Origin: Diphasiastrum complanatum
Lineage: Eukaryota > Streptophyta > Lycopodiopsida > Lycopodiales > Lycopodiaceae
DNA length: 64,000 nt
Direction of reading: 5' to 3'
NCBI GenBank assembly: GCA_029204225.1
Contig: CM055107.1
Location: 7,846,873 to 7,910,872 of the forward strand
Shown here: piece after piece, positions 14,040-61,509 of the stretch
Layout: every line of letters begins with the position of its first letter
Numbering within the stretch: the stretch's first letter is position 1
Notes under the pieces: generated by a model
The model's database searches: none
Seen by the model: the letters and a program-made list of their open reading frames with translations, nothing else
Told to the model about the DNA's origin: nothing
Made by a program: the position numbers and the translations under genes

Positions 14040-14764
14040 CTTAGACTTATCTTTCTTTTTTCCAAAAGAAGAAGTCTCACCTTGATCTTGCCCTTTAGAC
14101 CACTTGCCTTTGCCTTTGCCCTTGAACTTGCTTTGATGAACATAGCATCCTCTTCATAATGAGATGTCGATGTAGATCCACCTCCTCTTGATTGAAGCCT
14201 ATACTCCTCATTCACCAAGATCTCTTGCAAATCCACAATACTTGGCAAAGTCTTTTGAATAGCAAAACTTTGAACAAGATTAGCATGATCATCCAACAAG
14301 CCATTAAGTATAACTTGAACAAGCTCTACCTCCTTAATGCTTTCATCAATACATGCTAACTCATCATTGAATGCCTTAACCCTCAAAACAAAAGCATGAG
14401 TACTCTCTTCCCTCTTTTGCAAACTTTGAAAGATTTGCCTCCTAAGAGTAAGCACTCTTGATGTAGACTTGGATTCATAAAGCTTTTTCAAAATTTCCCA
14501 AGCCTCCAAAGATGATGTGCACTTACCAACTTCCTTGAGAAGTTCATTGGTAACATTCATCTTAATCATGTGTAGAGCTTTCTTTGCTCTCTTGTCATAC
14601 CTCACTTGATCTTGAGGTGCTTGAGGTCTCTCCTCCACACCTGCAACAATCTCCATCAACTCATTCATCTCCAATAAGGACTCCATCCTCACCTTCCAAG
14701 TAGAATAGTTGATTGAGGTAAGCCTATCATTGCTCTCCAACATAAATCCACCACTTGTAGCCAT
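14036..14764 (-). CDS. Copia Gag (UBN2-type) of the young element
   Basis: 242 residues starting MATSGGFMLESNDRLTS. It shows the features of copia gag polypeptides: NYSTWKVRMESLLE near residue 20, a helical LKKLYESKS segment near 90, FNDELACIDESIKEVE and LNGLLDDHANLVQSF near 135-165. It would form the particle that packages the RNA. The last ~40 residues run in a different frame from the zinc knuckle. The related element at 23770-25821 keeps FIKRKSKSKWSKGQDRGE and its zinc knuckle in one frame, so the young copy has a one-base shift near 14147. This could be a mutation or a programmed frameshift site. ATG 14764 is the first one after the primer site and fits the family start. Confidence 0.88.
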   Translation of the reverse strand: MATSGGFMLESNDRLTSINYSTWKVRMESLLEMNELMEIVAGVEERPQAPQDQVRYDKRAKKALHMIKMNVTNELLKEVGKCTSSLEAWEILKKLYESKSTSRVLTLRRQIFQSLQKREESTHAFVLRVKAFNDELACIDESIKEVELVQVILNGLLDDHANLVQSFAIQKTLPSIVDLQEILVNEEYRLQSRGGGSTSTSHYEEDAMFIKASSRAKAKASGLKGKIKVRLLLLEKRKISLS

Positions 14765-15353
14765 GTTGAAGTGACCTGATCTTCTCTTTCAACCTGTTCC
14801 AATGCACAAAGCACTCTCTTGAATGTCAAAAAATGAACTCAAGAAGAAATCACAAAGATATGGAACCTCTCAAATCTCTTCTAGCACTTCTAACTAGAAA
14901 ATCAACACATAGAATAGTGAAATCTTGATCAACCTATGATCTATCCTCAATCTAATGATTCTTGCCACTTCCTAAGATTGAAACACACTCAAATAAAGTT
15001 CAGTAACCTCACAAACTAGAGATCCAATCAAAATTAGGGTTTTGACAAAATCACAAAAAATTGAATATCTCAAATTCTACATGCAATTTCTAGAAACTTG
15101 GTATATCTTCTTGTAGACTCCAATGAGACCTTCCTAATGCACCAAAAATCATCTAATTCCAGTAAGCCAAGTGTTAAATCGGAATTGATCAAGTATATAA
15201 CCCTATATTGAGTTTTGACCTACAAAAGATCAATTCTACACATGCAAAAATGCTGATTTTTGAGTAGAGATCAATCTAGCATGCTCTAGCATTGGTAACT
15301 CCTCAAACTTCTTGCTAAAGATGGCTGATCCTTTCATAACCTGAGACACAATA

Positions 15354-15365
15354 GCTCTGATACCA
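15354..15365 (-). other. Primer binding site (initiator Met tRNA)
   Basis: The minus strand reads TGGTATCAGAGC directly next to the 5' LTR end, the standard copia primer site. Confidence 0.92.
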
Positions 15366-16019
15366 TGTGAAGGATTTCAGATCATTCAAGATCCAATCCA
15401 AGTCCCAAATCTTTGGTTACAATAAGGAGCAAACCAACAATCCTGCCAATGTAGAAAAATCAGCATCTACATACAAAATGAGATGCAAACTCTAAGAGAT
15501 ATTGATCAAACATGAACCAAAACATAAAATGTGTTTGCTGTTCGTACAATTACAATACCCTACTGTATTTCACACGTGTGGAACCGAAAATAGCAATAAA
15601 TGATCATTCTACACACAAGATTGCAAGATAACACCAAGATAGTGCACCAATGAGTAGTAGAACCCAAAGAGAACCATGTATAATGATGAAATGAGAGAGA
15701 GAAGAGAGAAGATGTGTCTCTCCAATAGTTACATCCTTTTATAGAGTTTCCAAACCCTATTTGGCCACTTGGCTTTCCCTCCAAAATGTAAACCCTACTA
15801 TTTTTGGGTCTAGATTCAATGTACCCAAAGTTCAAATTTGAATCTCTCTCAAACTCGACTACCAACTTTCCCACACTTTCCAAAAGTGTTTATTGAATGT
15901 AGTTTAAACTAATATAACTTCAAAAAGTTTATCTCTAAGTCTAAAATGAGTTTTGGCCTCTTATTAACAATTTACCAAAATGTGACTAAACTAGACTAAA
16001 CTAGTTGAAATCTCTCACA
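15366..16019 (-). repeat. 5' LTR of the young copia element
   Basis: 654 bp, apparently identical to 10529-11182. The minus-strand TATA box is at 15736-15745. CACACGTGTG is near 15573. The outer flank is the target duplication CATTC (16020-16024). Confidence 0.95.
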
Positions 16020-16096
16020 CATTCTGACATCCGTATCCACTGTACCCAAAGTGCACGAGTTTATTTCCACCATCCTACGACACTCTACGAGCTGTC

Positions 16097-19957: not shown

Positions 19958-21225
19958 CATTAGGGCCCTTTTTGAACTCAAAAAGGGACTCTTCCTTTCC
20001 TAAACATGTTTGCTAATTAGGATTAATTAACTCATTAATCATCCTATGGGCAGTTCACCCTGGGTTTATCATGGGTTAACTTCTATTTTAGTAGGCTTCA
20101 CTTAGGCCTAACATAATATAGCAAGGACACCTAATTTTTGGCCAAAAAATTTAAATCCAATATAACATCTATTTTTTCAAGGCCTTCAAAATTCATCTTT
20201 TTAAGTTTAGAATGAGTGAAAAGGGGGCCTGATATTTTCTTGGGCTAAACCCTCAACCCTAAACCCTAAACCCTAAACCCTAAACCCTAAACCCCATTTT
20301 GAAAAAAAAAGGAGAGGGGGATGGGAGTACATCCCCCCCCCCCCCCCCCCCCGCCCCCCGTTCTCTCTCTCTCTCTCTCCCTCGGGGCCAGTTGGCCCGT
20401 CGCGCCCCACCCACCCCTCCGGGCCACTGGTCCTCATTGAATCGCATGGCCCGGAGGGCCACACCTAACACCCCCCTCCCCTCCCTCGTTGTCCTGTCAA
20501 AGAGGGAGGGGGGAGACATGGGAGCTTGCGCTCATCACGCTCCCACTCGGCTCAACAGCTCCAAGTGGGCAGGAGCACGCTGCTCTGCCTACTTGGAGTC
20601 GCTGAGCCAGGTGGGAGCGCGATGAGCGAGCGCTCCCAGGTCTCCCCCCTCTCTCTTTGACAGGACAACGAGGGAGGGGGGGTGTTAGGAGTGGCCCTCC
20701 GGGCCACGCGATTCAACGAGGGCCAGCGGCTCGGAGGGGTGGGTGGGGCGCGACGGGCCAGCTGGCCCCGAGGGAGAGAGAGAGAGAGAGTGGGGGGCGG
20801 GGGGGGGGGGGGGGGGGGGGGGTACAAGCGTACAATGGGGGGGGGGGGATGTACTCCCATCCCCCTCTCCTTTTTTTTTAAAAATTTTTTTCAAAATGGG
20901 GGCCCGAGGAAATATTGGGCCCTCTTTTCACTCATTCTAAGCTTAAAAAGATGAATTTTGAAGGCCTTGAAAGACGATTATATTGGTATTTAAAATTTAA
21001 AGTTGAGCCTTGTCAAATCATCATTACTATGGGTTGAGCAAGTAGAGTTAGAGGAGGGTTACTAGGAGGGTTAGAATTTGGAGATCTATTTTACACCATT
21101 GGATGTGCCATGTCATATGAACCATTCCATCTCACTTGTCACTCTCTTATTGGTACACATGTCATCATTAACACTAATTATAATTGGTGAAGAGGCCCTT
21201 TTGGAGTCCAAAAAGGGCCCTAATG
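19958..21225. mobile_element. Fold-back DNA element, 1268 bp, inserted in gypsy gag
   Basis: The two ends are inverted: cattagggccctttttg...actcttc at the left against the complement of gaag..ggagtccaaaaagggccctaatg at the right, about 37 bp with a few mismatches. A subterminal part of about 200-300 bp differs between the arms. Inside, about 20145-20575 and 20600-20995 form a long near-perfect inverted repeat. It includes GC-rich blocks, a CT/AG tract and poly-C/poly-G runs. The centre is near 20588. No transposase is visible. The gag reading on both sides shows it is an insertion, but no clear target duplication could be defined, so the superfamily (Mutator-like or other) is open. Reading frames inside it are products of low complexity. 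Confidence 0.85.
20246..20294. repeat. Interstitial telomeric repeat tract (CCCTAAA)n in one fold-back arm
   Basis: About seven head-to-tail copies of the plant telomere heptamer CCCTAAA, with one ccctcaa variant. In the right arm the matching place (20898-20915) goes from the ccattttg equivalent straight to gggc without any heptamers, so the tract was added to, or kept in, only one arm. Confidence 0.9.
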
Positions 21226-30869: not shown

Positions 30870-32240
30870 GTTTGTCTCGGCATCTAGCACTGGACGAAAC
30901 AGACCGCATGCAAGACGGAGCCCGTTCGACGATACTGGACCACTTATTGGGAATATCAAAAAGTGGTCCATTTGTTGTGCCCTAAATGGTGCTCCTTCTG
31001 ACATGAAGGACATTTTCAGACAAACGATGTCTGAATTGAGCTGCAACTAGTCCAGTGGGTTTGTGCCAAGCCCACGAACCAGTGGCCACCTTCCATCTAA
31101 GGTTATGACATCTCTAGCACGAATCCGACTAGTTTTCGGTCCAACAGGCCTAGGTTTCCTATATTGTTGTTAGGGTTTATGGCTGCTCGGACGCACGTTT
31201 CTCTGTGAGTACGGAACCGTTTGGAGCCCAGTTTGTTGTTGCACGTTTGTCTCAGCGTGCAACATTGGACAGAATAGACAACATGCAAAACGGAGCCTGT
31301 TTGTGAATATTGGACTATTTCGTGGGAATGTTGAAAAGTAGTATATTCTTGTGCCCTAATGGTGCTCCATCCAGGACGAAGGACATTTTCAGAAAAATGA
31401 TGTCCAAGTTGAGCTACATTTGGTCTAGTGGGTTCGTGCCCACAAACTTGTGGCCACTTTCCATCCGAGGTTCTGACATCTCTAGCACGAATCCGACCAG
31501 TCCGGTCCACAACATGCGTAGGTTTCCTATAATGCTTTTAGGGTTCATGGCTTGGACACACATTTCTCTGTGAGTACGGAACCATTTGGATCCCGGTTTG
31601 TTGCTACGGGTTTGTCTCGGTGTGCAACACTGGATAGAATAGATAGCATGCAAACCAAAGTCCGTTCGACAATATCAGACCACTTCTTGGGAATGTCGAA
31701 GTAGTCCATTCTTGTGCCTCAATGGTGCTCCATCCAACACGAAGGACGTTTTCATAAAAATGACGTCCAAGTTGAGTTGCACCTGGTTTAGTGGATTCGT
31801 GCCAAGCTCAGAAACCTATGGCCACCTTCCGTCCAAGGTTCTGACATTTTCAACACGAATCTGACCAATTTTCGGTCCGATAGGCCTAGGTTTCCTATAT
31901 TGCTTTTAGAATTTATGGCTTGGAAGCACATTTATCTATAGATACAAAACCGTTTGGAGCTCGGTTTGTTGCTTCGTCTTGGCATGCAACACTGGATGGA
32001 ACAAACAACATGCAAAACAAAGCCCTTCGACGATATTGAACCACTTATTTGGAATGCCAAAAAGTAGTCTATTATTGTGCCCTAATGGCACTCCATCCTG
32101 GCATGAAGGACATTATCAGAAAAATGATGTCCAAGTTGAGCTGCACCTGGTCCAGTGGGTTCGTGCCAAGCCCACAAGTCTGTGGCCACCGTCCGTCTGA
32201 CATTTTGACATTTCTAGCACAAATCCGACCAATCTCCTTT
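30870..32240. repeat. Satellite-like tandem array, four copies of a ~365-375 bp unit
   Basis: The units begin gtttgtctcgg..tgcaac at 30870, 31245, 31610 and about 31974. Each contains tggtgctccatcc, ggacattttcag, gatgtccaagttgagctgca, ggccaccttccatc, the sequence gacatctctagcacgaatccgac and gtttggagccc in the same order. The copies differ by an estimated 10-20%. The last copy ends near 32240, before a CA-rich stretch. The short frames inside are repeat by-products. Confidence 0.92.
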
Positions 32241-38239: not shown

Positions 38240-39806
38240 TTGTTTTTTTTAGTCATGACTAGTTATGTCTGAAAATGGGGTACCAATGATCTTATGAATA
38301 CCTATGTTTAATGTATTCCTCTTTTTCTTCAAGTGACATATTGTTGCATATGCTTCTTTGCTAGTACCTGCAAAATCACAGGCATCCTTAACTATAGTCT
38401 TATCTAAAATTTTCTGAATGTCCACCATCAAAGACTCTGCAATTTTGCACTTTACATTGAAACTTCTATTGTTCATCATGATACACTCAGTGGATTTGCC
38501 TATCAATATTGAGCCCAATGACATTCCAAGTGAAGCATTGTCCTTAATATTCTTAGAAGCTACTAATGCAGATTTGCAAAAAATCAGATAGTTAGCATAA
38601 TATCACCGTAGCTGGAATAAATCCATATGTCATTGATAAAGGTACAAAAATCAGAATATGCTTACTTGAATGCACAAATCCTTCTATTAAAATAACCTCC
38701 TTTAAAAAGAGTTTGAATATCCTTACAACTTTGTCGCTCTACGCTTGTTATTCCTAGCTTTCTTCTTAGCCTCTTCCACATCCTTCAGTAATTGTAAGTT
38801 TTCAAATTGAATAGATTGTAAGATTGATTGCATTTGCTCTATTCTGATTTGATATCAAATGTTATCTTCTGTAATGATTCATTATTTCTTTTATGTTCTT
38901 CATTTTCCTCTAAAGTCTTTTGGACAAGACAATCTCTTTTATGACAATAAGAGGATATGTGTACCGAATCACATTCTAAAAAGTGAATTTTTCATGGAAA
39001 ACTGATTTCATAGCTCTGCAATCTCTCACAATATCCTAGTAATCCAGTATGTCCATTGCATATCCATGTAACTAGATGAGTTTTTGAAGAGAATGTGGGA
39101 TGAGTGAAAGTGCTATGACCTTGAGGATACAATCTTCCATCTGTCCACAAATTCAAGTTCTTATTTTCTTCTTTCCTATTCGATCCTCAGCAAATATTGG
39201 AATTCCTTTGCCTCCCCTTCTCTGTAAAGGTGCCAAATCGTAGGGATGTCCAAATGTAGATGATACAATGTCGTCATAAAAAAAACCAAAAAGTAATCAC
39301 ATACATCAGAACAGATTTTTCAAAACAAATCAAACTACTTATTTTTTATTATCCTATATACTTTGTACCATCAATCCGTTGATTTTGCTTGGCTACCTGA
39401 TTCAAATTTGGAGATGGTGCTCATATTTTCATTCCAATGTGAAGATTGCACTCATGTCAACCAGTGGAGGGAATTCATATTCGAATTTAGAAAAAGCTAA
39501 ACTCTTCAATTCTTACATTTTGTTCTTTTTCTTGATTCAAATTTGGGGATGGCGTTCATATTTTAGATCCAATGAGAAGATTTTCCTCATCGTAACCAAT
39601 GGAGGGAATGTATATTCGAATTTAGACAAGTTAGACTATGAACAATTTAGAGTTCTTAACTGTGACTATAGACACTATGGTTAGATCATTGGGAGTTGGG
39701 GAGGGTCAAGAGTGATGGGGGCAAGCAAATAAACAATATGGCTTTTTTTATTTTGATTTTTTCATTATCGTACATGGAAGTCCTTATAGGGTATTTTTGA
39801 TATTTG
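38240..39806 (-). repeat. Inverted partial copy of the 45148-46800 element, with gene relic
   Basis: The minus strand aligns from its start (atcaaaaataccctataagg, about 39800) to GSILIGKSTECIMMNNRSFN and KDACDFAGTSKEAYATICHL (38524-38290). The plus-strand element has GSILTGKSTECIIMNNRSSN and QGASDFVGISREAYATIFKL (46493-46690). The copy ends after IHKIIG near 38260, so only the first half is present here. Identity looks around 85%. The two copies lie in opposite orientation about 5.3 kb apart. Confidence 0.85.
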
Positions 39807-44884: not shown

Positions 44885-45147
44885 AAGCTTCTTAGATTTT
44901 GGTCTTTGGTCACTAGGGACAGTCCTGCTTTGATAATCTGGCTTTTGTTATCATCAGTGTGGCCTTTTCTTTGTAGTCGACATTTTTCTTTCCTTCAAGC
45001 AGTGGCTCAAGTGTCCACGTTTCATTCTGCCTCATCGACTCGATCTCCTCCGACATTGCTTGCTTCTAAAATTCACCTTATGGACTCTGGATAGGTTCTT
45101 GATATGTCGCCGGCTCCTCAGCGTAGCCATTAGAAGAGGTCTCATTA

Positions 45148-48100
45148 TCAAAAAGACCCTTTAAGAAATGCCATGTAGGATAAAGAAAAAAATCAAAATA
45201 AAAAAATAATAATATTGTTTATTTGCTTGCCCCCAACACTCCTGAGGATCTCCAACTCCCAATGATCTAACTATAGTGTCTATTGTCACAGTTAAGAACT
45301 CTAAACTGTTCATAGTCTAACTTGTCTAAATTCAAAAATATTTTCCCTCCATTGGTTACGAAGAGGGCAATCTTCTCACTGGATCTAGAATATGGCCGCC
45401 ATCCCCAAATTCAAATTAGGAAAAAAAGTAAAATGTATAAATATGCATTCCCTCCAGTAGAATAAAAATTTGAGTGCCTTCTCCAAATATGAATGCCATC
45501 TCCACATTGGAATGAAAATTTGAGCGCCATCTCCAAATTTGAATCAGACAGAAAAGCAAAATCAATGGATTGATGGTACAGAGTATATAATATAATAAAA
45601 GATAAGTACTTTGTTTTGTTTTAAAAAATTTGTTCTTAGTACTTTGATGCGTTTAATTACTTTCTTGTTTTTTCTGATGACAACATTGTATTATCTACAT
45701 TTGGATATCCCTACTGATTTGGCACCTTTACAGAGAAGGGGAGGCAAAGGAATTCCAATCTTTGCTGAGGATCGAATAGGGAAGAGGAGGCAAAGGAATT
45801 CAAATATCTGCTAAAGATCATTCTCGTTATAGGGTAGAAGGAAAGAACAACTTGGATTTGTGGACAAATGGAACATTATATTCTCAAGATCCCAGCACTC
45901 TGACTCATCCCACATTCTCGTCAATAACTAATCTAGTTATATGGATATGCAATGGGCATACTGGATTACTAGGATACTGTGAGAGATTGAAGAATCATGG
46001 AAATTAGTTCTATATGATGAAAATTCACATTTTAGAATGTAAGTTGATACGGATATCCTCTTATTGTCAGAATAGAGATTGTCTTCTCCAAAAGACCTTA
46101 GAGGAAAACGAACAACTTAAAAGAAATAATGAATAATTACACCAATATAACAATCGATATCAAATACAAACTAAAGCAAATGCAATCAATCTTACAATCT
46201 ATTCGAATTGAAAAGTTACAATTACTGAAGGATGTGGAATTCTAAGAAGAAGGCTAGGAATAAGAAGCGAAAGCAACAAAGTTGCAAGGATATTTAAACT
46301 CTTTCAAAAAGGATGTTATCGAAATAGAAGGATTCATGCATTCAAGTAAGCATGTTCTGATTTTTGTAACTTTATCAATGACATATGGATTTATTTCAGC
46401 TACGGTGATATTTTGCCAACTATCTGTTTTTTTGCAGATCTGCATTAGTAGCTCCTCGGAATATTAAGGACAATGCTTCACTTGGAATATCGTTGGGCTC
46501 AATATTGACAGGCAAATCCACTGAGTGTATCATTATGAACAATAGGAGTTCCAATGTAAAATGCAAATTAACAGAGTCTTTGATGGTGGACAATCAAAAA
46601 AATTTAGATAAGACTATAGTTCAAGGTGCTTCTGATTTTGTAGGTATTAGCAGGGAAGCATATGCAACAATATTTAAACTTATTAGAGAAGCTTTTAAGT
46701 AAGTTCAAATTAGAAAAGTACTAATCCCAAGGTCATATCACTTGAAGAAAGAGAAGGATACATTAAACATAGGTATGCATAAGATTATCGGTAACCCATT
46801 TCATATTGAGGAGGTGTATGAAACTGATGGAAGTTCAATATCTTGTAGTTCATCAAACAACTTATTTGTTGATATAAATTACTTGCTAAGATACATCGTC
46901 ACATTCTATGATATAACCTTTGAAAAGGTGAATGGCAAAATAATCATGGTACTTAAGCTAAATGAGTTAGAAATTGTAAAAGGGTAGAAGATGGAGAGTG
47001 TTAGTATAGCTCTCATGAATGGTGCACTATCACAAACAGTGGAACAAGGAGATTTCAGATTTAGTGTCCAGTCCGAGAATGATATATGGTGGTTGGCAGC
47101 GTTTCAAATAATTTTTCTCTTTATTACATTATTTTCAATGGATAATATAAATTCATATTAAGCTAAGTTTGAATTATTGTTTGGATAGGTATTGAAGGAG
47201 GATCATGATATATTATCATGGATATTCTCTAGGACATCTTACCCTAGGATCATCAAGGACCATATGGATGGAGGATTTCTCAATGTTCCACAAGTTGGAG
47301 ACTTCAATGTTGAATGGCACTTAGCAAGTTATTTGAAAACATTGAAATGCATGTATAATGTCTCTCACGATGCTACATCCAAACACCCTTGTTTATACTA
47401 CATGAAAATGGCAAAAGATGTTACTAGGAGTACATGAATTACTAGAGAATATGCAGATCCAAACTGGAAGCATGTGCTGCCCATTCCCTTGAAAATTGTG
47501 CATGTTTGCACTCTTCATGTAGAAGTTAGATTAATAGAAAAGCTCATTTATCTTCATATAGTTTTTGCTTGAAATACTAAGCCAACATCATCCTCGAAGG
47601 AAGCTATCTCGAGATTAGAAGATGTTTTATCGAAAGCAAGACTTCATAAGGGACGTGTCAAAATACAGAAAGATGAAAAGCTTTCAGAAAAGACAAGAAA
47701 TATGCTTACTAAACCAAGCATAGGAGGAGCAAAAGCACGTCAATTCCTATCAAAACATACTGGTAAGGCTTCAAAATTTAACACTCAGTCTGGATGGATA
47801 TCATTGCTGCCACTCAAGGTTTCGAGAAGAGCGGCAAAACTAGATTACTAAAAGTTGATGTATGGAGAAAGCTTGATAGTATGATTGAAATTTTAAGAAA
47901 AGATAAATTTTCTGATATTGACAAGAAAGCTGTACAAAATACTTGTGTCGAGTTTGTTGGTACAGTATCAAAAGCATGGGGAGAAGATCACATCACTCAT
48001 TACATGGTTAGTATAAATGCTTCGAGATGATTTTAATACTCCTTATATATTTTGATCCAAGCATAAGACTGACATTATGATTTTGACATGTGCAACACAT

Positions 48101-48210
48101 AATAAGAGATCATACAACATTTTTTGCAAACACATGGAAGCCTGAGTGTCTAGTCATCACAAGGGATGGAGAAGTCACATTGGCAAGCACGGGCAGCATT
48201 TCATCAACAT
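45148..48210 (+). pseudogene. Unidentified decayed multi-exon gene, probably carried by a mobile element
   Basis: The first ~1.6 kb is duplicated in inverted orientation at 38240-39806. Successive plus-strand coding blocks look like exons. 46438-46698, after a good tttttttgcag acceptor, encodes GISLGSILTGKSTECIIMNN and ends at a gtaagt donor. 46742-46984 includes ITFEKVNGKIIMVLKLNELE. 47192-47437 includes VPQVGDFNVEWHLASYLKTL and DATSKHPCLYYMKMAKDVTR. 47460-48003 includes WKHVLPIPLKIVHVCTLHVE, FLSKHTGKASKFNTQS and VDVWRKLDSMIEILRKDKF. 48086-48208 includes IIRDHTTFFANTWKPECLVI. Stops interrupt the blocks, and one acceptor seems mutated (caa for cag). I do not recognise the family. The DLK...HPC..C and H..ILRDH patterns faintly recall transposon-borne proteins, which is a guess. 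Confidence 0.5.
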
Positions 48211-48552
48211 GGAGGAACCAATGAAAAATGAAACTACATTTATCAATTATTTCAATGGTTCTACCGTAGAGTTCAGATTTGACAAATAACAAAATCCATA
48301 GAATATATCAAGTTTAGAAAAGCATGCAAGTTCACGCATGAAGAGAAAAATTAGAATATTGCTGAATAACAGATTACATTCTTCTTGAAACTGTGCCTTT
48401 TCTACAAATGATTTTAATATAACAAAGACATTCAGTAATCATTGTCATCAAATTATGACAAGTTCAGAAAAGCAAGAGAGAAGAGCATCATAATCAAATG
48501 ATATGTACTCAATGTAAATGTATTAATTGTATCATAACATAAAACAAAGTGT

Positions 48553-49345
48553 TCACTCTTCATCATCAATTTTTGTATCTCCTTCTATGCCGATGAAAGA
48601 ATCCCGAACCACTTCAGTATCAAGGGTGTCAATAAGGAAGTGACTAATATCTTTAAAGGATGATGGAACTGAGGATGAGGCCATTTGAGGATCAGAAGCG
48701 ATAGCTTTTTCATCATCCGAGATCTAAACTAGCAGGAAAAGTATAAAACCAGTCTAGTATTTAAGAAAACGACATTTTCTTTTACAGATAGGACACATCA
48801 TAGTGTATCTAAATTGTTCAAACAATCTAGTAAACATTCTGTCTAGTCTTTGCTTGAACATCGGGAAGAAATGAACAAGACCAGTAAAATGCATGAATGA
48901 GAGAGGACCTATGGAGATAACATGTATACTAGCTATATCCCTGAATCTAACATAGTATTTGTAAATACTGCAGAACTAGGTTGCACAGTCTTGCAAACAT
49001 GTAGATATGGGCGAAATAGTGTGTGAAAGTAGTCTAAGTTTTTAGTCATTCCAAGATCAGTAAGAAATACACTTAGGGTGCTCTCACGGCTAGATCCCGA
49101 GGACAACACCATGGCTCTCAGGTAGATATCGCTTCTGTGCGTGGGGTAAGCAAACAGGAAAAAAGAGATTGTAAGAACGCACACAGGAGTGATATGTACG
49201 AAAACTGTAGTTGGGATATCGCATTAGTGTGTAGACAAAAGACTAGCAACAATAGATACTATAAATAGTGCGCAGAAAAGCAATTTGCCATGAAAATTGA
49301 GAAAAAAAAGTAAAAAATTAATCGGGTTGCATGTCTTTTATAGGC
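48553..49345 (-). other. Possible small gene on the minus strand
   Basis: The minus strand has a clear TATA box (CCTATAAAAG, 49345-49336). An 83-codon frame follows at 49184-48933 (internal start MVLSSGSSRESTLSVFLTDL). A 47-codon frame contains CPICKRKCRFLKY (ending near 48758). There is also an exon-like acidic stretch after a ctagtttag acceptor: ISDDEKAIASDPQMASSSVP, ending IDDEE and a TGA at 48553-48555. I recognise no family and could not join the pieces in one convincing model. It lies head to head with the histone-like gene at 54397, with the CACGTG array and a copia between them. Confidence 0.3.
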
Positions 49346-49383
49346 AATTTTCACACGTGTGGGTCAATGGTCAACCAAACACA

Positions 49384-49543: not shown

Positions 49544-50152
49544 TGTCAGAAATCGAGAGGTTAGTGAGCAGAATCTTGAGCAGGTTCGTATAGGATCGGA
49601 AACGCCACAAACAACAATAGAGTATTCAAATTGAATGATTTAGACAAATGCACAATGAAATGATACTGTAGTAGGACTAAAAATTTGCACTCTGATTAAT
49701 ATCAAACAGTGAGTACATGCTTGAAGTGATAACTTTAGCTTACAGTCATTGAGAGTGATAACTTTGGTTGTAGAAACTCGAATAATCAGAAGAAGTAATC
49801 TGATGAGATTCTAGGATTGATATCCTACAAAATATCTACAACTACCTTTTGTTGCAGTTATTACAATTGCCTCATTATAGTTAATGCATGTACAAAGTGG
49901 ACAGACTATCAACGCGAAGTCGTTGGGTCGGCGACAGTATCAAAATTTACAAGTATCAAAAAATGTACAAAGATTTGAAAATACTGACTCGAAAAATATA
50001 GAATTTTTCGAGTCGATCCGATATAAAAAATTCCTAGAAAAGATTTGATTCTGAATTTTTCAATCCTCTGTTCATAATTCGAGCTTTCTGTTTTTGGTTT
50101 TTCATGATGCTCATTATTGAATGGATTTGAGACTGAGCATCGAAATCCAACA
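49544..50152 (-). repeat. 3' LTR of the ATTGG copia
   Basis: 609 bp from TGTCAGAAATCG to AATCCAACA. The purine tract on the minus strand (AAATTAAGGAAGAG, 50153-50166) is adjacent. Confidence 0.92.
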
Positions 50153-50166
50153 CTCTTCCTTAATTT

Positions 50167-50366
50167 GGATCTTGAAAACTTTTGATTTTTAGATTCAACA
50201 TGTCGTTGAATCTGAGGTGGTGCTCCTTTGATAGAGCCTTTGTGAAGTAATCTCCTGCCATTGATTCTGTCCTACAGTAGACTAAGGATATATCTTTGCT
50301 TTGTACTTTCTCTCTCAAATAGTGATATCTGATTTTGATATGCTTGCTTCGAGAATGAAATCTTGG

Positions 50367-50464
<98 letters not shown>

Positions 50465-51620
50465 ATGGTGCTTAAGTTGTCACAAAAGATGGTTGTTGGA
50501 TGTGATTGTGCAAGGTTGATTTCTGCTAGTAGGTGCCTCAACCAAATTGTTTCCTTTGTAACATTTGTGTCAGCAATGTACTCTAATTCAGTTGATGATA
50601 ATGCTACTGAGGTCTGCTTTCGGCTGTTCTAGGAGATCGGTTCTTGATTGTATAGGAATACCAATTCATAAGTAGACCTTCTAGAATCGATATCTCTTGC
50701 CCAATCTGCATCTGTGTATCCTTCAAGTACGTTGGTAGGTTGGTTGTCTCCATAACGTATGCTAAGATGTTTGGTTGCCTGAATGTACTTCATGACCTTT
50801 GTGAGCACTTTCCAATGAGTTAGACCTGGATTCGATAGAAACTGGCTGAGTGAACTGATTGAATATGCAATGTCACGGGTCGAGTGCAGATCATTGCATA
50901 CATTAGTGAGCCGATGATGGAGTGAAATAGATATTGTTTCATCTCCTCCTAATCTGCCTCAATTTGAGGATATTGTTCCTTTGACAACTTCAATCCAAAG
51001 TCAAGTGAAAAGAGACTTGGTTTGTAGTTGGCCATTCCATACTTTTTCAGCACATTTGTGAGATATCGCTGTTGGTTGATGAAAATCGGACGACTAGATC
51101 AAATTCAGAAAATTTTGATTCCGAGACAGTAGTGGGCTTTTGGACCCATATCAGTCATTTTGTACTCCTTGGCCAGCATGCATTTCGTTTCCTTCATCAG
51201 ATCCAGATCGTTACTAAATAATAGTGTATCATCTACATAGAGAGTGACGATGATGAAGAAATTTGATACAGAGTTGAAGTAGACATTCGAGTGTGCTGAG
51301 TTTGGAATGAAACCATTCTAATAAGGAATGCATTTATTTTTTGGAACTAGGCCCTAAGTGACTATTTCAGTCCATAGAGTGCCTTGTAAATTTTGCACAC
51401 AAGGTGTTGTTTTCCTCTCAACTCATATTCTTCTGGTTGTGACATAAATATTTCTTCTTCAATGGTCCCATTGAGCAAAGCGATCTGGACATCCATTTGA
51501 TGGACTTCGAGATCTACTGCAGCTGCAAAGGAGAGTAGCAAATAGAACAAAGCATGCTTGAGTATTGGGTTGAAGGTTTCAGAATAATCCAGATCTAGAA
51601 TCTGGGAATAGCCTTTGGCT
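50167..51620 (-). pseudogene. Copia RT and RNase H of the ATTGG element
   Basis: The minus-strand frame 51625-51362 reads AAKGYSQILDLDYSETFNPI, VHQMDVQIALLNGTIEEEIF and ends KIYKALYGLK, the first half of copia RT. Stops then multiply. RNase H reappears at 50570-50450 (ETIWLRHLLAEINLAQSHPT, then FCDNLSTIALS). There it is invaded by the AG/CT microsatellite. It ends with a tail of the type ESMAGDYFTKAL near 50240. Confidence 0.85.
50370..50462. repeat. (AG)n microsatellite inside the copia RNase H
   Basis: About 46 AG units lie exactly where the minus-strand protein reads IALS in the conserved DNLSTIALS motif. The array encodes a Ser-Leu run, after which the RNase H similarity resumes (QSKISFSKQAYQNQISLFE). 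Confidence 0.92.
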
Positions 51621-52220
51621 GCCAAAGCATATTAGATGATTCAGAAGTTGAGGTATGACGAGCTTGACTGTTGGAAGAATAACAATGGCTGAGTTTGTAG
51701 AGATCTCTACTTCTTCTCCCAAAAGCTAGAATTTTCCAAGTTTTGTTAAGGATAGTGCAACCGATTGTATCGAATTTAACCCTTCGATCTGAATCAATGA
51801 TTCTGCTAACTGAGAGTAGATTCTTGGTCAGATTTGAGATGTGGAGAACATTGGGAAAGAAATGAGTAGGAATTTTACCCTTAAAACACATATTTGATAC
51901 AAGATTCAAATTTCTTAGTTCTTTCAACATGCCAATCAAATCTCAAAAAAGCTCTGCCCTGCGGCCTTATGATCTTTCCAGATTCAATTAAGAATTTGAG
52001 AGTGGCAAAAAGTAGTTATTAGTTTCTTGTTGACAATAACCTTGACTTCACCTTTCTGAAATTTGACTCTGACTATTTCTTTACCTTGAATTGAATGTGA
52101 TGAGTTGTCTCCAAGTTGCACAACTCGAGTGGGTGAAAGATTTATAATCTTTGAACCAGACTTGATGGTGAGTCATGTGTTGAGTTGCTCCAGAATCGAG
52201 ATACCAGGAATCGATATCCT
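51600..52220 (-). pseudogene. Copia protease and gag-pre-integrase relic
   Basis: From about 52225 the minus strand reads a weak protease site (DSWYLDSGATQHMTHH). Near 51900 it reads GKIPTHFFPNVLHISNLTKN and LLSVSRIIDSDRRVKFDTIG. This passes directly into the RT at about 51615, so integrase was deleted. Confidence 0.75.
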
Positions 52221-53160
52221 ATTGTTTTCCGACCTTGGTCATAAAGGCTGCTTCATCTTCCTCATGTTGTTGTATCAAAAAACTAGTTGAGGCTGAATTT
52301 GCTTGTTGTTGGAAGTGCTTCTTCTTCTCATTCTTGAATTTTAAAGTTCTGTAGTCCTTGATCTCAAGTCCAATTCTCTTGCAATATCTGCAGAAAAGCT
52401 TCTGCTTTGGTTGGAAAGATGAAGAGTTCGAATTCGATCCTGAGTCTAAATTCAACCCAGAGCTAAAATTTGAGACTTAGTCAAAATTTGATCATGACTG
52501 CATATTGCTCTCTTTTTTTTGGATCTAAACTTCTGATTTTTGGAATACAGAGCATGAGGATCCGACTGTGTACCTAAGGAGGTTGCAGATCTTCTGGCCT
52601 CCTCTTGTTGAAGTAATAAAATCACTCTTGAAAGGGTGATCTTCTCTTGGATCAAAATTTCTAGGACCCAGTTCTCATAGGCCTCATGAAGACTCGATAA
52701 TAGAGTTATAACAACATCAGTATCTTCAATGACTGAGCCAGTTGCAGTCATTTGCTCCATAAAATTTTGGAAAGTGTTGATGTGGATCGAAACATTTGTT
52801 GCTTCAGACATTCTCAAGGTGAAGAATTTTTTCCTCAAATGCAGTTTGGAGGAGATGTCCTTGATATCATAGAGTGTTGCTAGGATGTCCCATGCATGCT
52901 TAGTAGTCTTAACAACTCGTATGTGACTGATTTGATTGTCTTTGATGTTGAGGTGATCATGACAAAAGCCTTGTCATCTTTCAGTCTCCATTTGGTGATA
53001 GTGGCTACATGACCTCCAAGTTTAACTTATGTGCCATCAACAATGTCCCACAGTTCCTTGGCTAGTAGTATGACCTTCATTTTGAATTTTCAAAGATGGT
53101 AGTTTCTTCTATCGAGTCTATCAATTAGAGAAGAATTAAAAGACGAATCCATTCTGGTTG
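52219..53160 (-). pseudogene. Copia Gag of the ATTGG element
   Basis: The minus strand starts near 53152 with DSSFNSSLIDRLDRRNYHL and continues with stops and a shift to MRKKFFTLRMSEATNVSIHI. Then come the helix VVITLLSSLHEAYENWVLEI (52838-52452) and a degenerate zinc knuckle CRYCKRIGLEIKDYRTLK. The His and third Cys of the knuckle are lost. Confidence 0.82.
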
Positions 53161-53277
53161 AGCAAGATCATCGGTAGAAACAATTCGAGATACTGTTGGC
53201 TATGCGCTTGCTAGGACGCGTCTTGATATAAACAAGACTTGATAATCCGCAGTAAAATACAAATTACTGCACTGTCC

Positions 53278-53289
53278 GCTCTGATACCA
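53278..53289 (-). other. Primer binding site (initiator Met tRNA)
   Basis: TGGTATCAGAGC on the minus strand, touching the 5' LTR. Confidence 0.92.
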
Positions 53290-53899
53290 TGTCGAAAATC
53301 AAGAGGTTAGTCAGCGGAAGCTCGAATAGGTTCATGTAGGATCGGAAACACCACAATAAATAGTAGAATATTCAAATTGAATGATTCGGACAAATGCACA
53401 ATGAAGCTATATAGTAGTAGGACCAAAAATTTGCACTCTGATTAATATCAAATAGTGAGTACAATGCTTGAAGCGATAACTGCAGCTTACAATCACTGAG
53501 AGTGATAACTCTGGCTGCAAAAACTCAAATAATCAAAAGAAGTTTCTAATGAAGATTCTAGGATTGACATCCTACAAAATATCTACAACTACCTTTTGTT
53601 GCAGGTATTACAACCGCCTCATTATAGTAAATGCTTGTACAAAGTGGGCGGATTGTCAATGCAAAGTCGTTGGGTCGGATTTTAGATCATCGACAATATC
53701 AAAATTTACAAGTATCAAAAAATGCACAAAGACTCAAAAAATACTGACTCAAAAAATATAAACTTTTTGAATCGATCTGATATAGAAGAATTCTCAAAAA
53801 AATTTGATCCTAAATTTTTCGATCCTCTACTCAATGAGCCCTAGTTTTTCAAGATGCCCATTAAGAAATGGATTTGAGACTGAGCATCAAATTCCAACA
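53290..53899 (-). repeat. 5' LTR of the ATTGG copia
   Basis: 610 bp from TGTCGAAAATCA to ATTCCAACA. Clearly diverged from the partner at 49544-50152. Confidence 0.92.
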
Positions 53900-54396: not shown

Positions 54397-55458
54397 ATGG
54401 ATAGGAGAAAGCAGACAAAGAGAGATTTTTTCTCTACTGATACTTCCTCAGAGCCTATTGTTGCCATTAATCCACCCAGACAAACTAGAAGGCGCAACTG
54501 TAGTAAGTGGCTATATGATATTCGCAAATACCAGAAATCCACCAAACTCCTAATTTCCAAAGCACCATTTTACCATGTTATCCGCCAGATTACCAAGGAA
54601 GATCTCGGTAGTATAGTTAGGTTTACACCCGGGGCACTTCAGTGCCTTCAAAAGGCTGCTAAGGATTATCATAGCCTCTTTTCTGAGGACTCATTTTTGC
54701 TCGTCATACATGCCAAGCGAGTTATGATAATGCCTAAAGATTTTCAGCTACTATACAAGATGAGGGATAGATACTCAAAATTACATATGGGTGAGCCAGC
54801 TGCTCCCAGACCCGCCGATCCATTAGATAGGACATACCTCCCTACCAAGAGGCCCATGAAGCAGCCAACCCCCAAGAGAACCCCGAAGAAAGTAAGGAGG
54901 GTCGTTAATCCAGAGTCTCCTTTTGTAGATAATATAGATACTGCTACATTTGATTTGGTTGTAAACATAGCTACAACCATTTTGGATAATTCAGTTATTT
55001 TTGTAGATTCTTCTCATCCACCTCCTCCTCTTCCTTCTCATCCACCTCCTCCTCATGCAATTTTTTATACATATATAGATTTTGATGATTATCTTAAATT
55101 TGAGAGTGACATGTATGATGTTGTAGATAGAATTGGAGTTCCATTTTGTTTTAGATTAGAGGAACTTGATTTCAGTATAAATTATAGGATTATTGATTGT
55201 TTGGATCTAGAAAATAAATGGGCTTTTATCAGTGATGCTGTGATAGAGTCTGGGGACACACTCTTGCAATTTGACATTGCAAGAGATTCATCGAGTGAAA
55301 TTTTGGTGCTCAACAATTCTTTCCTTCAGGCAATTAAGGAGAAGAATGACAATTTGTCACAATGTCTATTTAGTGGATATACACCAGTTACAAAATATCT
55401 GTTTAGTGGATGCACAGCAGTTACAAAATATCTGCTGGTGTCTTATCACTGCAAGTAA
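54397..55458 (+). CDS. Divergent histone H3 / CENH3-like protein with long C-terminal extension
   Basis: The open frame runs from 54232, but I choose ATG 54397 because the protein then starts MDRRKQTKRD, aligning with the H3 start MARTKQTARK. The tail is about ten residues shorter than in H3, and the K9 position is Asp. The histone fold spans residues ~38-126: DIRKYQKSTKLLISKAPF, RFTPGALQCLQKAAKDYHSL, FSEDS, and IHAKRVMIMPKDFQLLYKM. IRKYQKST, IHAKRV and MPKD are H3 hallmarks. APF, a loop 1 one residue longer than in H3, and TP.AL..LQ.AA.DY are closer to plant CENH3. After the fold come a basic stretch (KRPMKQPTPKRTPKKVRR, ~150-168), a Pro-rich SHPPPPLPSHPPPPH, and ~120 unrecognised acidic/hydrophobic residues with a tandem LFSGYTPVTKY / LFSGCTAVTKY (55366-55431). 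No stop breaks the 353 codons. A strong donor (CAAGTAAGT, GT at 55455) overlaps the stop, so the reading may continue into 55562-55913. It would bind DNA in nucleosomes if functional. Function and expression are unknown. Confidence 0.8.
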   Translation: MDRRKQTKRDFFSTDTSSEPIVAINPPRQTRRRNCSKWLYDIRKYQKSTKLLISKAPFYHVIRQITKEDLGSIVRFTPGALQCLQKAAKDYHSLFSEDSFLLVIHAKRVMIMPKDFQLLYKMRDRYSKLHMGEPAAPRPADPLDRTYLPTKRPMKQPTPKRTPKKVRRVVNPESPFVDNIDTATFDLVVNIATTILDNSVIFVDSSHPPPPLPSHPPPPHAIFYTYIDFDDYLKFESDMYDVVDRIGVPFCFRLEELDFSINYRIIDCLDLENKWAFISDAVIESGDTLLQFDIARDSSSEILVLNNSFLQAIKEKNDNLSQCLFSGYTPVTKYLFSGCTAVTKYLLVSYHCK

Positions 55459-55561
55459 GTCAATTTAAATGTTTTTTGTTATTTATAGCTTTATTATTGG
55501 CATTATCATTTGAGGTATTTCTCAGAATTGTAGCTAATGGACTCTCTATTTTATTTTGCAG
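55455..55561 (+). other. Putative intron 1 of the histone-like gene
   Basis: 107 nt with donor GTAAGT and acceptor TTTTATTTTGCAG. With this acceptor, exon 2 gives three residues and then a TAG. A second AG 12 nt downstream (55572-55573) skips that stop and keeps the frame. Confidence 0.5.
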
Positions 55562-55717
55562 TGAGCACTAGAGTTTAAACTTGATCTCTATCAGGAGATC
55601 TATAGAGAATGTTATTAAACTTTTTTGTGTAAATATTGACTCGGTCCTACCGATTGTATGTAAATATATTCCATCAGAGACTCCCATGCAATTGAATGAG
55701 AGATCATTAGTCTGGAG
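55562..55717 (+). other. Putative exon 2 of the histone-like gene
   Basis: In the frame joined from exon 1, one TAG (55569-55571) is followed by 48 open codons (SLNLISIRRSIENVIKLFCV, then CKYIPSETPMQLNERSLVW). It ends at donor AG|GTAAAT (55718). The length is a multiple of three and the phase is 2. No domain was recognised. Confidence 0.4.
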
Positions 55718-55823
55718 GTAAATTATGTCCTTCTCATCAACATTTTGAAATCAACAATCTATTGTGTTCTTATCATTGTGTGGTTTTCCATTATTGATGT
55801 CTTGTGTGCTGAAATTTTTGTAG

Positions 55824-55913
55824 TCACCCTAGCAAAATGATTCATTCAGTTGTGGGTGGTACACTTTGTACAATGCAAAGTTGCTTTTTGAGCAAGATGT
55901 TGATATTTCAAAG
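55824..55913 (+). other. Putative exon 3 of the histone-like gene
   Basis: The acceptor tttttgtag ends at 55823. The 90-nt exon stays open in the same phase (HPSKMIHSVVGGTLCTMQSC, FLSKMLIFQ) and ends at donor AAAG|GTAATT. The 106-nt intron 2 (55718-55823) is similar in size to intron 1. Beyond it lies copia DNA at 55966, so the 3' end of the gene is unclear. Confidence 0.4.
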
Positions 55914-55965
55914 GTAATTTATTTTGTTTATTATTGGTTTTGGAATTGTGATTCATTTTTCTATT

Positions 55966-56436
55966 CGAAATGCTTCTTTTGTAGAAAGAAGGGGCATTAT
56001 GCGTCTGAATGCTACAAGAGAATAAGAGCACAAGTGGAGAAGGACAAACAAGGAAACCTTGCAAAGGAGGAGGAGGAGGATGAAGTAGATGTATTCTTGA
56101 TGGCATCTACATCCTCACCAACAAGCAATAGCAATTCAAGAGACAATTGGTGGATCGACAATGGGGCTAGCTCCCACATGTCTTGTGAAAGGACTTTTTC
56201 TCAACTTTACACTCATTCAATGATGCTAAAAAGTTTGTCTTTACTGCAAATGATGAAGAGTGTAGGATAGATGGTGTTGGCACCATCTCTTTGTGTCTAG
56301 AATCCTCAAAATGCATGGATCTAGAAAATGTCCTTTATGTACCATCAATAACCAAGAATATGCTTAGTGTTGGTCTACTCTTAGAAAGTGGTTTGGATGT
56401 CCACTTTAAGCATGGGGTTTGCTTCATCGGATTCTG
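55966..56436 (+). pseudogene. Copia zinc knuckle, protease and gag-pre-integrase fragment
   Basis: The plus strand reads KCFFCRKKGHYASECYKRIR (CCHC knuckle), an acidic linker, and NWWIDNGASSHMSCERTFSQ (protease site, with Asn for Ser). After a frame change at about 56220 it reads LENVLYVPSITKNMLSVGLL and ends HFKHGVCFIGF. The fragment ends abruptly at 56436. Integrase of a copia in the same orientation reappears at 60346, so 56437-60300 may be an insertion, though this is unproven. Confidence 0.85.
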
Positions 56437-58221
<1,785 letters not shown>

Positions 58222-60202
58222 ATTTAATCTAGATCCCAATGTGGTATCGCATTATTTACAAAATCAAAGGCCTCAAATCTATTTCTCGTTTAATTAATCC
58301 TTTACTTCTTGGTAATTTCTCGAATATAAGACATCAGACTGATTTATATGATTCTTTCCAGCATTAAGTTATTCTTCTAAAAGACTGTTATGTCATATAA
58401 TTTACTACTTATGTGAATAGACTTGGAATTCAGATAAATTCTATGGTTTAAGTGTTTCAATTATTAAACCTAGAATATCTCTTTTTGCATAAATGGTTTT
58501 TGATGGAATGGTAGTTCTGTCACTTGGGTTGAAAATAATTGAAGAGGAAGTCATTATTACTGACTTTTCTTGGATTTGGGTAGTTTCATATATCATCTTT
58601 CCAGTTAACTTTTATTGAAATTGATAATTCCTTTGAAAGGAGGGGTGAAGTGGTGGAATAAAATTCTATTTGGGAATCTCTGGGTTGCATAATGTTTGGA
58701 AGAGAACCAGATGTAGTATAGAAATGAGATTTGATTTGAAAGTAATTTCGGATACATTCAGAGTAAGATACCTAATTGAAACTTTTTTAATAAGAGAAAT
58801 TCTCTAGGGATTGTGTAGACAATCTGGAACTAGAACAAGTTTGATATTTGAATCATTATCTATAAGTAGTACTGTAAAAGGTCAAAGGTTACTAATTCCA
58901 TTTTGATTGAAATAGAAGTAAGTTTGATTAGAATTTAAGTCTGAGAGTTTTGTATTTGATCAACCTAATCTTAGTTTTAATACTAGAATCAGTGAGGGGT
59001 TGATTGAGTGGAAGAAATTATGCTATTAGAGAAAATTGGATTGGAAAACTGTTGAGAATGAATTTTATTCGTCTCAGAGATTTATGGATATGTTATTTAC
59101 TAATGAGAAATGGAAAATATTTTGTAGCTGAGTTACAAGATCTCAGTGAGATATGTGAGTAACATACGTGGGTTATGGAGGAATCTACTAGATAAAAATG
59201 TGTTTATGTACTGGGTCATAGTGAGATTATTCACATATGTGCACGATTAATCTTGTATGAATCTACTGTGTATTCTTGGTTACTAGAGCTATTTGGTGCA
59301 CTTAACCTAGTCGATGAACATGAACATATGATCAAGTATTGTTTTGACAGATACTTGCAGAGTTAACGGATCTTTCTATGGAAGATTTATGAGTTGACTA
59401 ATAGATGATTTGGATAAGGATCTAAATGGGGTGTTATGCTAGTATAATTAAGATCTGCACCTAGACATTTGAGATTTCTAAATCATTGGCAATTAACTTG
59501 AGTAGTTGATTACTCCAAGATGAAGTTAATTGGTAAAACGATTAGTGTGATGGGAAATTCACCAGGAACTGATGGTTTGTTAATTATATTGTTTGTAAGA
59601 TGCATGATTAGTGAATCATTTGGTTTCATCAGTTAAATTTGTATGCATTGGATATACAATATTCTTGGAATAGAAAATTCCTCAGTTAAGGAATAGACTC
59701 AGTTCTTTAGTGATTGTATCCCAGAGAGCTCAATTGGATAGCAAATCATAATGAATCCAAAAATAATATCTGAATTGATATTCAGTAGGACTTTGGGTAT
59801 CTAGATTTGATTCTAGATTGTAATCTAGAGCTTTTTTTGCAGTTGAAGATGATTGTCATTTTAGTATGCGTTCAGTCTTTAATTACCCGTGATCAATAAA
59901 ACTTAAAATCTTGCACTTCAGTTAAAAAATCATGTTTGAAGAATATTTCTAAATCCAGTATTTTCTTAGTGGAAAGGTATTCTGTAAATGATTATGGCTT
60001 TGGATTCCAGAAAATTATGATTGACAAATCATACGAATCTAAATATTTATGATTAAGGGATCACAAATAGATACTTAAATATTGTCAGAGGATTATAAGG
60101 AATTATAATGATTCTTAAGTGTGACAATTAAGTCTTGGTCTATTAATTGAGTAAGAATTCAGATCAGTATTTTGAACCTCTTTACTCCAATATTATTGAG
60201 AA
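58222..60202. repeat. Unidentified ~2-kb dispersed repeat, copy B
   Basis: Direct-orientation partner of 3141-5090 with the same order of segments (for example tattcacatatgtgcac, ttggtgcacttaacctagtc, ttgacagatacttgcagagtta). It has small insertions such as the tatccagagagctcaattgg region near 59720. Stops are frequent. Identity is not assigned. Confidence 0.75.
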
Positions 60203-60609: not shown

Positions 60610-61470
60610 ATCCATAAGTAAGTAGCCTTGCTGAGATGAAAATACTTTTTGATTTCAATATTAGAAAAATCCTGCCAAGTTGTGGTGATTTTTAGACTTA
60701 TGTTTCTAGCATAAGTAATATTGATAATCATAGAAAGTGCACATTGTATGATCATGTTTGTAGTGATCATCATGAGACATGGAGGTCTCAGATTTCCATC
60801 AAGGAGGAGCATGCACATCAAGAAAGCGAATGCCTCAAGGTCAAGCATCTACATGAAATTTGGAAGGAGTCAATCATCATCATGCTTTTATCAAGTTAGT
60901 TTTGAGGAGTGTTAAAATTGGCAAAAGCACTATGACTGTGACATATATATCTAGCACAAATAGGATAAGTTATCGATGAGATATAGCTCGTCTTTGTAGG
61001 ATATCAATAGGACCATCATCCTAAGTGTCAAACAAAGTGATGGACAAAAGAGTGCACATTGGAGAGAGTGGAATGCTGCATAAGTCCAAGATCTTCTCGG
61101 AAATAGTACCCTTGAAATCCAAGATCACATTAGAGGAGTTTTGAGTTCCAAAAAGACCCTTTAAGAATTCGTGCAAGATGTAGTTTATATTATTAAAATA
61201 TTATAGCACTAATACTTTTGACTTGCCATAACTTTTTAATTGTAGCTCAGAAGTATATCATCTAACATATCATTGGAAAGCTCTTGTTGAGCGCTTTCCA
61301 ATGCACTAGACTCTGCTAAATTTGGACTTGCCACAAAAACGTTATGCCATTTTTAGTGTGGAATCAAAATGTGGACTCAAAAAGTTACGTTATGTAGATT
61401 TCAAATTTGAGTGTTTTGATTGGTCCATGTGTAAGAAAAAATTGAGAAAAATTAAAAAAAGAATCCTTAC
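60610..61470. other. Non-coding, possibly decayed copia pol
   Basis: No motif is certain. The segment ccaaaaagaccctttaagaa near 61149 resembles the start of the element at 45148 (caaaaagaccctttaagaaa). A short inverted pair ggaaagctcttgttgagcgctttcc lies at 61275-61299. Confidence 0.4.
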
Positions 61471-61509
61471 AAAGTTTGGATTTAGAACTCCTCTAATGTC
61501 ACATGGGTG

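Follow-up and report, generated by a model that had tools for sequence, protein, structure and literature searches.

A histone H3-like reading frame of Diphasiastrum complanatum as the first exon of a DNA transposon gene for a predicted histone–Ulp1-like fusion

What kind of gene begins like histone H3, holds the whole histone fold and then stays open for some 200 residues more? The question is raised by positions 54397-55458 of the stretch of Diphasiastrum complanatum DNA analysed in this work (64,000 nucleotides, hereafter the window), where a frame of 353 codons can be read directly from an ATG at 54397 to a TAA at 55456-55458; starting instead from an in-frame ATG further upstream, at 54232, the product would have 408 amino acids. 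The first-pass annotation saw here a variant of H3 or of the centromeric CENH3 with a long addition, and as a description of the frame this stands: it is open, its product contains both IRKYQKST and IHAKRVMIMPKD, the residues after the fold do reach 353, and the part that comprises the three core helices can be aligned with the Pfam family and with H3 chains of the PDB. What the frame belongs to is another matter, and is the subject of the following.

The histone fold and its relatives

The fold occupies residues 36-125 (54502-54771, plus strand), as delimited by Pfam, PDB and alignment. The window protein matches PF00125 (Histone) over residues 17-122 (E 7.9e-21, 75 bits against a cut-off of 26.4), its best PDB matches are the H3 chains of nucleosomes (residues 30-124, best E 4e-18), and its loop 1 has one residue more than that of H3. 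In a fold alignment of 25 rows, made up of 20 transposon copies (the window's included) and five histone-bearing proteins of the protein collection, the invariant positions include Y45, S48, F58, Y91, D98, H105, K107, R108 and R123. The tail in front of the fold (MDRRKQTKRD..., 54397-54501, plus strand) resembles that of H3 at its start only, host H3 reading MARTKQTARKS. The canonical H3 layout is absent, with a tail of about 35 residues and about 200 further residues of exon 1 past the fold; the AlphaFold model of exon 1 has a mean pLDDT of 37.

Searches of the protein collection with the whole frame or with the fold alone gave three matches each, which either were confined to the fold region or were plain H3 themselves. 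With the extension on its own, not one of 580 candidates there reached E ≤10, and Pfam gave nothing significant either; of 58 pattern matches in viral contigs, none was confirmed. The collection also contains an unrelated H3-like protein of 236 amino acids (P0003) that is extended at the C-terminus by about 100 residues.

The protein had been described as fast-evolving and as a mixture of H3 and CENH3 traits that is hard to place, and the comparisons bear this out. At the 40 sites where host H3 and Arabidopsis CENH3 differ, it agrees with H3 at 11, with CENH3 at 8 and with neither at 21. In a tree that carries a long-branch warning, ten transposon histones form a clade of their own (100/99) on a long branch; in the fold region their identity is 45-50% with host H3 and 41-48% with the Arabidopsis CENH3. 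The search for host H3 gave 13 top rows, at 60% to the CENH3 query, and the four of them that were read (L035, L036, L039 and L040) are standard H3. Judged from these alignments, the histone part is an old derivative of the H3 family in a clade of its own.

A four-exon gene carried by a DNA transposon

The TAA had been taken for the end of the protein, an interpretation that the splice signals overturn. By these signals, the frame at 54397-55458 represents the first of four exons in a DNA-transposon gene: the unspliced reading stops at 55456-55458 because it passes the 5′ splice site at 55455 (AA followed by GTAAGT) into intron 1, and it ends at the same place in 17 of the 19 open family copies (the exceptions are L010 and L027). 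All parts of the gene lie on the plus strand. Exon 1 (54397-55454; 352 codons and two nucleotides, with the same end in relatives) is followed by intron 1 (55455-55561, GTAAGT...TTTTGCAG) and by exon 2 (55562-55717), which encodes the protease His region, is shorter than in relatives and reads NEH and then an in-frame stop. Intron 2 (55718-55823, GTAAAT...TTTGTAG) leads to exon 3 (55824-55913) with the protease Gln/Cys motif QNDSFSCGWYTLYN, before which another in-frame stop is met (SP*QND). Across the family, exon 2 starts with NDHWSLNLISIK and exon 3 with SPQQNDSFSCGWYTLYNAKL; the donor GT of intron 1 is present in 19 of 20 rows and its acceptor AG in 17 of 20. In a survey of splice-site patterns over 27 rows, where rows missing a pattern were left unjudged, exons 1-4 are fully open in five (L009, L013, L017, L019 and L024).

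Joining the exons also gives the extension an identity, since exons 2-4 complete a C48 match of which the residues past the fold form the front half. The spliced L013 protein has 470 amino acids and matches both Histone (E 1e-27, 97.3 bits, residues 27-123) and Peptidase_C48 (E 1.1e-10, 42.2 bits against a cut-off of 20.7, residues 316-442). Its protease part finds in the PDB the Ulp1-like protease 6dg4 (E 0.0019) and yeast Ulp1 (E 0.0048), whilst all six PDB sequences found at E ≤1 by a profile of five protease parts are SENP2/Ulp1, the best of them (1tgz, E 0.0015) matching over columns 49-201, which include the part encoded by exon 1. In the window, the front half of this Ulp1/SENP-like domain lies at 55066-55454 (plus strand, residues 224-352) and contains a 33-bp tandem duplication at 55361-55434. 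The annotation was right that a domain had been added; its suggestion that this might be a new one does not survive the addition of exons 2-4, and a new fold for the extension is rejected on the C48 and SENP2/Ulp1 matches. As predicted from the spliced copies, the complete protein consists of an H3-like histone, a basic, proline-containing linker and an Ulp1/SENP (C48)-like domain, and we regard it as almost certain that the histone frame is a transposon gene encoding such a fusion.

The His-Trp and Gln...Cys-Gly motifs of the protease-like domain are kept in open copies (DHWSLN, QQNDSFSCGW), and the catalytic Cys is missing in L012, L020, L021 and L022. The place of the catalytic Asp is taken by Lys (in the alignment to yeast Ulp1) or Ile (in that to 6dg4), beside an alignment gap, and none of 18 readable rows has Asp at the usual place, L026 having one a residue later. 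Owing to this gap another Asp may serve, or proteolysis may be lost.

That the gene belongs to a transposon follows from its repetition and its surroundings. In a search of the genome (1.745 Gb), all 115 places scored match the window protein at E 2.3e-126 or better; these are the best 115 of 9103 first-look candidates, and hence biased to good ones. Most of them span residues 1-336, on many contigs, with identities of 63-73%, leaving aside the window's own match and that of L028, a 98% copy from its contig. The matched stretch is free of stops in 28 of these best-scoring places, an unrepresentative fraction. Comparison of 20 regions, each some 10 kb in length and surrounding a copy free of stops, six left neighbours and ten pairs of ends shows that, in copies that are not truncated, shared sequence extends to between 4939 and 5687 bp left of the histone ATG (-4939 to -5687) and between 3741 and 3780 bp right of it (+3741 to +3780). 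At either end it stops in an inverted repeat about 35 bp long, which reads CATTAGAGGAGTTCTCAATATCAAAAAGACCCTTT at the left end and in reverse complement at the right. The element measures about 9 kb and its ends read CATTAGAGGAG...CTCCTCTAATG, with termini CA..TG. The left repeat is present in five of six left pieces of the first set and three of ten of the second, and the right repeat in six of nine and six of ten, respectively; copies without one or the other are truncated or shifted. By its ends and its repetition, the element is a high-copy plant DNA transposon with pieces of at least four genes, as grouped from open frames: gene 1 (plus strand) on the left, gene 2 (minus), the histone gene, and gene 4 (minus) on the right.

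Gene 4 is itself frequent, with 13268 first-look candidates of which 137 were scored, all matching. One of its exons (L024, 7058-7909, minus strand) encodes 284 amino acids, and its model, of low confidence (mean pLDDT 34.6), predicts a strand-strand-helix-strand-strand order for the last 65 residues. A ubiquitin-like C-terminus was considered for it and rejected, as the PDB gave no match at E ≤10 and Pfam only DUF6572 at E 0.076. Two copies are laid out unlike the main form, L007 and L008 having pieces of gene 4 left of the histone match, with a piece of gene 2 also on its right in L008; by these layouts, rearranged copies or other subfamilies exist.

As for the superfamily, members of the CMCT clade mostly have CA..TG termini and target duplications of 2-5 bp, and their transposases follow the pattern D, D, C(2)C, H(3-4)H (PMC12730594). 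The element has CA..TG termini with inverted repeats. Eight pieces of genes 1, 2 and 4 were compared with Pfam and all stayed below its cut-offs, the best score being that of Cnn_1N (E 0.004, 17.7 of 28.5 bits); a gene 1 piece compared a second time again had no match. By eye, gene 1 of L024 shows KLDESE, GDLKTLK, CLYC and HVCTFH, and on these motifs the putative transposase fits the pattern. Against a target-duplication criterion of 2-5 bp (3 bp for EnSpm), duplications of 3 bp flank two of nine pairs of ends, namely a short copy in the window (61128-61498, TCA/TCA) and the short copy of L005 (GAA/GAA), L028 being left out of this count as it repeats the window's site. They are absent from the short copies of L009 and L023 and from the full-length L013, L024, L047/L048, L051/L052 and L059/L060, of which L047/L048 shares CC/CC flanks. 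Membership in the EnSpm/CACTA-like (CMCT) superfamily is thus likely, as far as ends and motifs can tell. The short copy in the window, 371 bp long, is a relative that has these end sequences as well; out of 3684 candidates for it, 40 were scored as matches, one being the copy itself, and it was probably moved by the histone-carrying transposon.

The window's own copy of the element is in pieces. Its left end (inverted repeat CATTAGAAGAGGTCTC...) and its transposase-like gene 1 lie at 45128-48388 (plus strand), where the frames are interrupted and the first three motifs read KLNELE, ASYLKTLK and CLYY; from its sequence, this gene looks dead. A remnant of gene 2 (48618-49370, minus strand) is separated from the histone gene by a copia LTR retrotransposon (49544-53899, minus strand) with LTRs of about 610 bp (49544-50152 and 53290-53899), a 5-bp target duplication ATTGG and an LTR divergence of K2P 0.187. 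The histone gene part covers 54397-55966, where homology to the element stops and a copia gag/protease fragment (55967-56437, plus strand) adjoins. With one stop straight after the His of exon 2 and another before the Gln/Cys motif of exon 3, this copy reads as an old, broken element whose histone exon is open and whose gene is not. The annotation had the frame staying open amid dead retroelements: open it is, over 353 codons, but it belongs to a DNA transposon that copia has split. A retroelement origin of the frame was accordingly rejected, the copia pieces being insertions adjoining it.

Other parts of the window carry features of their own. A partial second copy of the left part of the element lies inverted at 38338-39804 (minus strand); it and the corresponding part at 45128-46673 have opposite orientations, and about 5.3 kb separates their left ends, which face one another. 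At 10529-16020 there is an LTR retrotransposon, very young because its two 655-bp LTRs are 100% identical; of its frames one is copia gag, and another, of 953 aa, opens with a zinc knuckle and a Pol_BBD domain and has no integrase or reverse-transcriptase match. A 1.5-kb direct repeat (3141-4679 and 58223-59723, 83% identical) lies near the ends of the window. Seven copies of CTAAACC, the plant telomere repeat, stand inside the chromosome at 20245-20294; a tandem array with a 368-bp unit (3.7 copies, 76% matches) occupies 30870-32233, and a perfect run of 111 TC dinucleotides (56869-57090) lies to the right of the histone gene.

Constraint on the fusion and its possible role

Amino-acid changes are held back in the family. 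The NG86 set comprised 21 frame-open copies, that is 19 family copies, the window and L028, with L003-L008 excluded for their broken frames; the 19 were selected as stop-free, and their lack of stops is no evidence in itself. Among them (171 pairs) dN/dS is 0.33 overall and 0.18 in the fold, and between them and the window 0.29 and 0.117, the latter at a dS of 1.86, near saturation. In a set of 12 copies the fold has 0.22, exons 2+3 0.24 and the linker 0.58, next to 0.42-0.67 in the pieces of gene 1, 0.30-0.38 in gene 2 and 0.36-0.49 in gene 4. In the same 12 copies, however, intron divergence (K 0.065-0.110) is lower than dS (0.15-0.29), and the NG86 ratios therefore overstate the constraint. 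Intron means from the wider family alignment, which takes in misaligned rows, were left aside.

A stricter test took mutation rates by base and context from 267 intron sites in 12 of the 19 open family copies; L010, L011, L016, L018, L021, L023 and L027 were omitted from the 12-copy tests for having exons 2-3 shifted, missing or misaligned, or for having been excluded earlier. The observed over expected ratio of nonsynonymous (N) to synonymous (S) changes is then 0.53 in exon 1 (152 N, 110 S; p 4.8e-7), 0.52 in the fold (p 0.004), 0.52 in exons 2+3 (p 0.005), 0.41 in the linker (p 3e-4) and 0.62 in the protease half of exon 1 (p 0.034), as well as a non-significant 0.52 in the tail (p 0.068). 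The most constrained part is here the linker, the reverse of the NG86 result. The protein sequence of the family is held back, moderately by the intron-rate measure.

The explanation we prefer, and consider probable, is that of a transposon histone-protease gene with a proposed role in chromatin. What this role could be is a more tentative matter. One possibility, to which we would give clearly less than an even chance, is relief from silencing. The H3-like part would pair with host H4, or be otherwise recruited to nucleosomes, and bring the protease-like part to chromatin. There, the latter would strip SUMO from silencing factors or, since no Asp stands at the aligned catalytic place, merely bind SUMO conjugates; silencing being relieved, the element's own genes would stay active. 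The narrower version, in which the transposon encodes a nucleosomal H3 variant of its own with a SUMO protease attached, enters chromatin in the form of a histone and removes SUMO from the silencing machinery wherever it is built into nucleosomes, strikes us as rather unlikely, and gene 4 as the source of a ubiquitin-like partner would be an unsupported extension. A parallel is found in Vandal elements, whose Ulp1-carrying VANC (KIU) proteins bring about hypomethylation of the very family that encodes them (PMC13317346).

To a similarly tentative degree, the fusion may serve targeting or complex assembly, such as chromatin-directed insertion or the maturation of element proteins, rather than any relief from silencing. 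Several groups of transposons have Ulp1 domains, for which a part in transposition itself has been proposed (PMC2836005), and the histone part could read chromatin or enter it; the Vandal KIU precedent, on the other hand, leans towards anti-silencing (PMC13317346).

That the histone is a passenger, captured in Pack-type manner like other gene fragments and of no use to the element, appears improbable. Captured genes usually decay according to a review (PMC13317346), and decay is what the window copy shows, as do the stops in 87 of the 115 scored matches (the best of 9103). Yet the gene is common to deeply diverged copies (the window protein is 68% identical to L013), its introns are shared, and amino-acid changes are under-represented in both of its domains.

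Still less probable is that the host has retained the window copy as a truncated histone-like protein. Exon 1 is open despite the old copia (LTR K2P 0.187), the chance of its having no stop or frameshift being 0.008 in a neutral simulation since that insertion, and the 98% copy L028 is open too. But the frame was picked as open among many copies, by which the 0.008 has to be read, and the window and L028 differ by eight nonsynonymous to four synonymous changes, five to none in the fold; there is no sign of present constraint on the window copy since the duplication that separated the two. The annotation had allowed for an H3 pseudogene open by chance, with no orthologs and a dN/dS near 1. This does not hold for the family; it may hold for the window copy, with its 8 N to 4 S against L028.

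Finally, the original reading of a plant gene for an H3 or CENH3 variant with an added domain has next to nothing left in its favour: it has the fold, some residues that resemble CENH3 and a loop 1 that exceeds that of H3 by one residue on its side, but copy number and element ends rule out a host H3/CENH3 gene, as the frame is multicopy and bounded by transposon ends, other copies have the same element genes as neighbours, and ordinary H3 genes are present elsewhere in the host.

Comparison with known systems

Proteins with which transposons undo silencing by their host are known. Should the H3-like part enter nucleosomes, the element would alter the chromatin unit itself, which would allow a direct test of whether nucleosomal SUMO marks keep plant transposons silent. 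More immediately, element genes account for at least 115 H3/CENH3-like frames of this genome, and the number is probably far higher. Such frames would confuse searches for CENH3, and an apparent frame-ending stop may be no more than reading into an intron.

DNA transposons bearing an H3-like gene are known from fungi. A hAT family of Pyrenophora tritici-repentis carries an H3L gene (PMC3538342), and hAT elements of Pseudocercospora fijiensis and its relatives carry an H3-like gene, with 784 H3-like sequences in P. fijiensis, where the sequence is plain, intronless and inactivated by RIP (PMC6710886). The likeness lies in a DNA transposon with inverted repeats that carries and multiplies an H3-like gene, whereas the present element differs in its plant host, its CA..TG ends, its four-exon fusion to a protease-like domain and its amino-acid constraint. 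Target duplications of 8 bp are given for the hAT elements of P. fijiensis and Cercospora zeae-maydis (PMC6710886); here, none was seen in nine pairs of ends, nor any hAT match to Pfam in nine ORFs tested. The word Ulp1 is absent from the main text of both fungal papers (PMC3538342, PMC6710886).

Ulp1 domains, in turn, are known from other transposons. Ulp1-bearing MULEs include Vandal/VANC (KIU, Kaonashi) and elements of grapevine, melon and rice (PMC13317346). They resemble the present case in that a plant transposon gene has an Ulp1 domain, tied to silencing relief in KIU, but KIU belongs to non-TIR MULEs and the element here has 35-bp inverted repeats; its pieces and ORFs tested gave no match to a MULE transposase in Pfam, and the word histone is absent from the main text of the same review (PMC13317346). 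Ginger1 DNA transposons encode Ulp1 or OTU protease domains (PMC2836005), the protease there being joined to an integrase-type transposase and here to a histone, in a gene separate from the transposase-like one. Among the literature matches listed, from a library with few subscription papers, neither a fusion of histone and Ulp1 nor a plant element carrying an H3-like gene of its own turned up, and within that scope a core-histone-like protein fused to a SUMO-protease-like domain is undescribed.

A further comparison is with the CMCT elements (EnSpm/CACTA, Plavaka, ESTA, Lanisha and others) and the fungal elements with TET/JBP (PMC12730594), with which the present element has in common CA..TG termini, an extra chromatin-related gene and, by eye, the C(2)C and H(4)H motifs of its putative transposase. 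There the cargo is a dioxygenase; here it is a histone-protease fusion, beside a putative transposase without a profile match. With plant CENH3 and canonical H3, lastly, the transposon histone has the histone fold in common, and it differs from both in being borne by a transposon, in its short tail, its linker, its protease-like domain and the clade of its own in which it stands.
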